DNA from: Chloroflexales bacterium ZM16-3
GTDB lineage: Bacteria; Chloroflexota; Chloroflexia; Chloroflexales; Chloroflexaceae
Assembly: GCA_004138175.2 (NCBI GenBank)
Contig: RYFE02000016.1
Location: forward strand, 1 to 64,000
Direction: 5' to 3'
DNA length: 64,000 nucleotides
Made by a program: the position numbers and the translations under genes. Below, in pieces: positions 12,062 through 13,566 of this stretch. The notes below the pieces were generated by a model. The model had not been told where the DNA came from and ran no database searches. It saw only the letters and a list, made by a program, of their open reading frames with translations. Positions within the stretch are counted from its first letter, which is position 1, and each line of letters starts with the position of its first letter.

Positions 12062-12090
12062 TTGCTATATCACGTGTGTAATGCTATACT
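12062..12090 (+). promoter_or_regulatory. Probable nif promoter (sigma-70 type, extended -10)
   Basis: TTGCTA (12062-12067), a 17-nt spacer and TATACT (12085-12090) preceded by TG-C give a near-ideal vegetative promoter on the plus strand. Transcription from about 12097 would give nifH a leader of roughly 650 nt. No sigma-54 (-24/-12) promoter or NifA-type TGT-N10-ACA site was found. Confidence 0.6.
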
Positions 12091-12379
12091 CACGGCATAC
12101 CCAGTTAGGAACACACGAATACTAATACCGGCGTTGGTAGAGGAACACGGTGTCTCTATCATTGGTTGGTTCCCCTAGTCTACGTGGCTATCATAATAGG
12201 CGTATCCCCTCAGTGTTGTACCCCCTGCAGTGACGCAGCTGGCCCATCCGTCTGTGCATAGAACTATCATCATCTGAGCCCATGAAGGCGCATCTGTAGC
12301 ACTGGCACTGTTGCAGTTATGTACATCTTGGGAGCTGGCTACTGTGTAGCCCAGGATCGATGCACAGACACAAGAAGGT

Positions 12380-12549
12380 CCCTCGCCGCTGGCACCGGCG
12401 GGGGACCCAGGCAACGGCGGCGTGAGCGCCGATGCGGTGACATCATAACACAGTGTCCCCGCCCCGCTTCACGCCGCCCTCTACTCGAAACGCCCTCATC
12501 CGCTGGCACCGGAGTGGGCAGTTCGCAGCGGCGGCGTGAGCGTCGGTGC
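12380..12549 (+). ncRNA. Duplicated potential hairpin element in the nif leader
   Basis: Two 49-nt copies start at 12387 and 12501. In both, CGCTGGCACCGG is followed by 16 unlike bases and then CGGCGGCGTGAGCG. Each copy can fold into a hairpin with loop CTGGCAC; the stem pair next to it changes from GCCG/CGGC to TCCG/CGGA, keeping pairing. A second small hairpin has loop GCGTGAG, with one C-to-T change that preserves a G-U pair. Between the copies, TCACGCCGCC (12469-12478) is complementary to GGCGGCGTGA of either copy, so alternative pairing is possible. I do not recognise a known riboswitch class. It may be an RNA element or only a DNA repeat. Confidence 0.4.
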
Positions 12550-12627
12550 ATCCTGTTTCAGCGCGTCTGAGCGCGCATGCACCTGCTCTGCTGCCGCCTC
12601 CACCCTAAGGAGCGCGGCTATTTGTGA

Positions 12628-13566
<939 letters not shown>

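Follow-up and report, generated by a model that had tools for sequence, protein, structure and literature searches.

The nifHBDK transcript of Chloroflexales bacterium ZM16-3 has a long 5′ leader, which probably contains a cis-regulatory RNA in tandem. According to the comparison with related sequences, the hairpins of this element, a helix between a hairpin loop and a downstream strand, the linkage to nifH and the confinement to Chloroflexales are established. The window analysed here is the whole stretch of 64,000 nucleotides from contig RYFE02000016.1, taken from a 6.27 Mb genome, and the operon nifH–nifB–nifD–nifK starts at 12745 with nifH (12745–13566; all features located below by window coordinates are on the plus strand). 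A candidate sigma-70-like promoter was found by consensus scan at 12062–12090 (TTGCTA, 17 nt, TATACT, with a TG extension) and is the predicted start of the nif leader, about 650 nt before nifH. Its TGCTATACT box recurs 5′ of nifH in the congeners L030–L032, and also in L036, L037 and L039. The small hairpin CUGCAGUGACGCAG (CUGCANUGACGCAG) at 12225–12238, close to the 5′ terminus of the leader, is conserved in several genera and is also present in nif leaders that have no tandem unit. An inverted repeat, CCTCAGTGTTGT/ACGACACTGAGG, is located at 12208–12219 and 12724–12735; its pairing would join the 5′ part of the leader to the Shine–Dalgarno region of nifH. A scan of the window leader found no plus-strand terminator with a U-tract.

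The initial annotation described a duplicated two-hairpin element in this leader. The two copies are present at 12386–12435 and 12500–12549 (78% identity over 50 nt, spacing 114 nt), and the distance of 196 nt to the nifH start at 12745 is correct. The stem changes between the copies were also observed as described: GCCG/CGGC becomes TCCG/CGGA in P1, and GGCG/CGCC becomes GGCG/CGTC in P2, producing a G-U pair. TCACGCCGCC at 12469–12478 is complementary to GGCGGCGTGA of both copies (12416–12425 and 12530–12539). The label of two hairpins was, however, too small. The unit consists of three hairpins, P1 (loop CUGGCAC), P2 (loop GCGUGAG) and P3 (loop NAUANCAC), and then a strand, CUCAYGC, located about 10–20 nt 3′ of P3 and complementary to the P2 loop. 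The P2 consensus across the relatives is GCA-R-CGGCG-[GCGUGAG]-CGCCG-R-UGC.

Copy 1 is complete (12377–12478). Its P1 hairpin (12377–12407, loop at 12389–12395) has a stem of 12 bp, longer than that described initially, and its P3 hairpin (12439–12457, GACAU/AUGUC type) had been missed; both are defined by the covariance model and covariation. Between them lies P2 (12411–12435, GCA A CGGCG / CGCCG A UGC, loop at 12420–12426). In the strand UUCACGCCGCC (12468–12478), 3′ of P3, nucleotides 1–7 are the partner of the P2 loop, and in the window genome the following four prolong the helix into the P2 5′ arm. Copy 2 retains P1 and P2 (12492–12549), namely P1′ (12492–12519, loop CUGGCAC at 12503–12509) and P2′ (12525–12549, loop GCGUGAG), and P2′ has no clear 7-nt partner strand in the window. 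Two further hairpins had been missed. One, 5′ of copy 1 (12294–12316), carries a CUGGCAC loop on the 8-bp stem CUGUAGCA/UGUUGCAG. The other, 3′ of copy 2 (12593–12618, GCCGCCUCC ACCCUAA GGAGCGCGGC), was recognized by sequence comparison; its 5′ arm is also able to pair with the P2′ 5′ arm, and it has a counterpart in L033, L035, L036 and L037. A comparison of the leaders found no conserved frame for an upstream ORF after the copy 2 hairpin. The leader region folds 3.1 sd below shuffles, and a model built from relatives scores 90 bits for copy 1, which is inside the seed, and 44 bits for copy 2, which is outside it. These results indicate that the element is not due to chance.

The structure is supported by substitutions on both sides of its base pairs. 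Across 35 units, in an alignment (A3) that was fitted to the model, 93.9% of the cells are paired, and both-side changes are found in 19 of the 25 base pairs, against 10.8 in shuffles (107 such cells against 21.7). When the partner is moved by 1–3 columns as a control, the pairing falls to 33–51%. Both-side changes occur in 11 of the 12 P1 pairs and in all five P3 pairs; P2 covaries little, its sequence itself being highly conserved. RNAalifold recovers P1 and P2 unaided from a plain, unfitted MAFFT alignment. Within Roseiflexus and within the genus g5, the leaders have diverged, and the units stand out in them as islands of identity. That the loops stay constant while the P1 and P3 stems vary points to an RNA and not to a DNA site. 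The initial annotation would have been contradicted by copies in relatives that change and lose their pairing; the pairing is preserved there, which favours RNA. The compensatory change extends across genera and two families, in agreement with the structured RNA proposed for the nif leader. Both the compensatory substitutions and the constant position 5′ of nifH on the same strand are those of a cis-regulatory structured leader RNA.

A blast search of 60 relatives with the leader found the unit 5′ of nifH in many genera. Among 82 Chloroflexales genomes, 20 are matched by covariance model R1 (E values from 3e-10 to 1e-17); these belong to Roseiflexus, Ca. Viridilinea and other Chloroflexaceae. 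In 19 of the 20 R1 loci nifH follows directly on the same strand, and the remaining match is at a contig end. Within each genome the strong R1 matches are confined to the nif locus. Most bearing genomes have two units, and copy 2 is usually more degenerate; the distance to nifH reaches 626 nt (L053). The exact P2 core pattern was found in 19 stretches among 84,980 named genomes, 16 of them from Chloroflexales, namely Roseiflexus, Ca. Viridilinea and Chloroflexaceae; the other three (Ahrensia, Burkholderiaceae and Clostridia) have no P1 or P3 and resemble chance coding sequence. Scans of the class and the phylum outside Chloroflexales with R1 gave weak matches alone (G151, G348), the likeness of the two G151 sites being limited to P1, and viral contigs gave no match. 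A blast match in G000:C55 lies within a dipeptide-epimerase-like gene, in its coding sequence. In the window's own genus, nifH of G001, G002, G003 and G005 (L030–L032, L039) has no unit. Given these close relatives, the unit is dispensable, and its presence and absence within one genus constitute a natural comparison for nif regulation. Two g11 genomes (L034, L035) retain apparent remnants of the unit. Together with the unit-free congeners, these remnants suggest that the unit was probably lost repeatedly.

The helix that joins the P2 loop to the downstream strand was analysed in 16 copy 1 units. In total, 95.2% of the cells of its 7 bp are paired, against 21–62% in slid controls; part of the strand placement was done by eye, and this evidence is strong, not blind. 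The gap from loop to strand is conserved at 36–43 nt. Two positions compensate in separate lineages, and none of 500 shuffles reaches such cells. GCGUAAG is matched by CUUACGC in Ca. Viridilinea, and GUGUGAG faces CUCACAC in L040 and CUCACAU in L055. We regard the contact as certain enough to belong to the element. In Roseiflexus (L041, L042, L043, L045 and L046), a hairpin is located in the last 60 nt before nifH, immediately 5′ of the Shine–Dalgarno sequence of that gene. Its 5′ arm is CUCACGCGC-like and complements the P2 loop; in that genus this arm may be the strand with which copy 2 pairs.

The initial annotation proposed that the strand gives mutually exclusive folds. The part of this proposal that stands is the loop/strand pairing, which is conserved and covaries. 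Where the helix would extend into the P2 5′ arm, conservation is lacking: only 57% of the cells are paired, no covariation is seen, and this extension is lineage-specific. The g5 strands run on as AUCGGC instead, a sequence that might capture the P2 3′ arm. Strict exclusivity is not fully supported, since P2 and the conserved 7-bp helix can both be present in a pseudoknot. The contact may persist as such a pseudoknot or may begin a strand invasion. According to nearest-neighbour folding, the form with P2 opened is preferred over the best P2-containing fold in 18 of 18 units, by 4–20 kcal/mol, and in most of the 18 such a preference is rarer than 5% among shuffled tails. A switch therefore remains likely.

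No expression platform is visible beside most units. In L040 (G007), however, the single unit adjoins nifH. The strand CUCACAC runs on there as GUCGCCUCC (CGCCUCC), which is complementary to GGAGGACG, the nifH Shine–Dalgarno sequence immediately 5′ of the start codon. A related element, element B, offers a comparison. It is found at L130–L145 in G012, G018 and G028, in leaders before small ORFs, and it is dispersed (nine places in G012) and not linked to nif; weaker matches are at G000:C38:88333-88441 and G049:C347:73429-73530. It mostly precedes paralogous proteins of about 90 residues with the pattern ..LGxILDELSxQGLxLWxDEQ..GFWALGEAIVDAVVTRYP.., which have no Pfam match, and in G049 it precedes a membrane-protein-like ORF. 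R1 and the element B model R2 each match the other's members. The two elements share the P1-P2-P3 order, a CGGCG/CGCCG P2, a UANCAY-like P3 loop and a 3′ strand complementary to P2, and P2 and P3 of element B covary. Element B differs in its P1, in a P2 loop that is not GCGUGAG, and in a strand that also pairs with a Shine–Dalgarno sequence: CYCGCC is complementary to the P2 5′ arm and, when adjacent nucleotides are included, alternatively to the AGGAGGC that precedes the small-ORF start codon. The window hairpin at 12593–12618 resembles this platform but is located away from any start codon; that it is the platform following copy 2 is a guess.

We propose the following mechanism. Each unit folds as P1-P2-P3, and its P2 loop GCGUGAG pairs with CUCAYGC about 40 nt 3′. 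The unit would be the sensing part of a switch, in which a ligand, a protein or an RNA stabilises one of two states. In one state P2 would be closed, its loop perhaps in a pseudoknot, and in the other the strand would open P2. The change of state would alter the access to a downstream expression platform, for which the candidates are the nifH Shine–Dalgarno sequence in one genome (L040), where it is seen directly, and, by analogy, the Shine–Dalgarno sequence in element B. By the same analogy, the nif unit may be the sensor that decides where the strand pairs. The element is probably an on/off switch for making nitrogenase. The narrower proposal of a tandem riboswitch class, directly sensing a nitrogenase-related metabolite or metal and controlling nifHBDK in anoxygenic phototrophs, is rather doubtful.

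Instead of forming a small-molecule aptamer, the hairpins might serve as docking sites for an RNA-binding protein or a small RNA that acts on translation or decay of the nif mRNA, with the CUGGCAC loops as the repeated sites. This we hold to be a real possibility, though with less than even chances. In the window leader the CUGGCAC loop is carried by three unrelated stems (12294–12316, P1 and P1′), and none of the other CTGGCAC occurrences in the window forms such a hairpin. Upstream CUGGCAC-loop hairpins with different stems are also found in Roseiflexus and in L056, and in several leaders of g5 a second P1 is retained that has no P2 beside it. The recurrence of these hairpins suggests that a common partner binds there. 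However, isolated protein sites would not need the conservation seen in P2, P3 and the loop/strand helix, and ANTAR regulators are encoded in 61 of 61 genomes with or without the unit, whose loops do not fit AxxGxx.

A separate small RNA acting in trans from the nif upstream region, outside the nifH leader, would agree with a compact conserved structure lying as far from nifH as in L053. It is unlikely, as the unit is always on the sense strand of nifH, merges with the nifH Shine–Dalgarno sequence in L040 and, in the window, lies with both copies far 3′ of the predicted promoter. Strong GC-rich hairpins in the leaders of highly expressed genes are known to stabilise mRNA, and the hairpins here could merely do so or mark processing sites, with no sensing. 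Conserved loops and a covarying loop/strand helix are unnecessary for such a role, and we consider it improbable. As element B is dispersed, the unit might also be a dispersed repeat (REP or MITE-like) that stands before nifH by chance. This is very improbable, because the strong R1 matches in the 20 genomes are orthologous, covary and are located at the nif locus only.

With respect to known RNAs, we class the element as a new family among the structured cis-regulatory leader RNAs, a kind already known, and not as a riboswitch. The initial annotation recognized no known riboswitch class, and in Rfam 15 no match above the gathering threshold was found; for the leader and the related loci, gathering and permissive thresholds gave sub-threshold chance matches alone. 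Chloroflexi-1 RNA (RF01698) was described as a structured RNA from a Chloroflexus (PMC2864571), and it has no match in the window leader or in the related loci compared with Rfam. The element resembles orphan riboswitch candidates and tandem riboswitches in its conserved hairpins, invariant loops, pseudoknot-like loop/strand pairing and tandem units, two in number, and in its place in the leader of a metabolic operon. It differs from them in matching no Rfam family, in its confinement to Chloroflexales nif leaders and in a sensor that is putative. ANTAR-responsive two-hairpin attenuators such as the NasR targets are also similar: they have adjacent hairpins, the second stem of which can be captured by a downstream strand, the NasR case concerns nitrogen metabolism, and ANTAR proteins are present in these Chloroflexales genomes. 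The rule for ANTAR targets is two hexaloop hairpins of the type AxxGxx, in which the first loop base is A and the fourth is G. The loops here are of 7–8 nt (CUGGCAC, GCGUGAG and NAUANCAC) on stems set by covariation, and contain no such hexaloop. The ANTAR motif and the ANTAR link were thus both rejected, the proteins being present irrespective of the unit.

Nitrogenase control is usually described through protein regulators, and we know of no resolved account of nif control in Chloroflexales. In the open literature, no RNA element in Chloroflexales nif leaders was found, and the words upstream, promoter and untranslated are absent from a Roseiflexus nitrogenase paper that was searched. Roseiflexus has a minimal nifHBDK set with no nifEN, and its diazotrophic growth has not been demonstrated (PMC11573651). 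The riboswitch reading, if true, would extend to this genus. A conserved RNA switch on nifHBDK, if true, would add a control point for nitrogenase at the RNA level, and would make the conditions of nif expression testable through its trigger.
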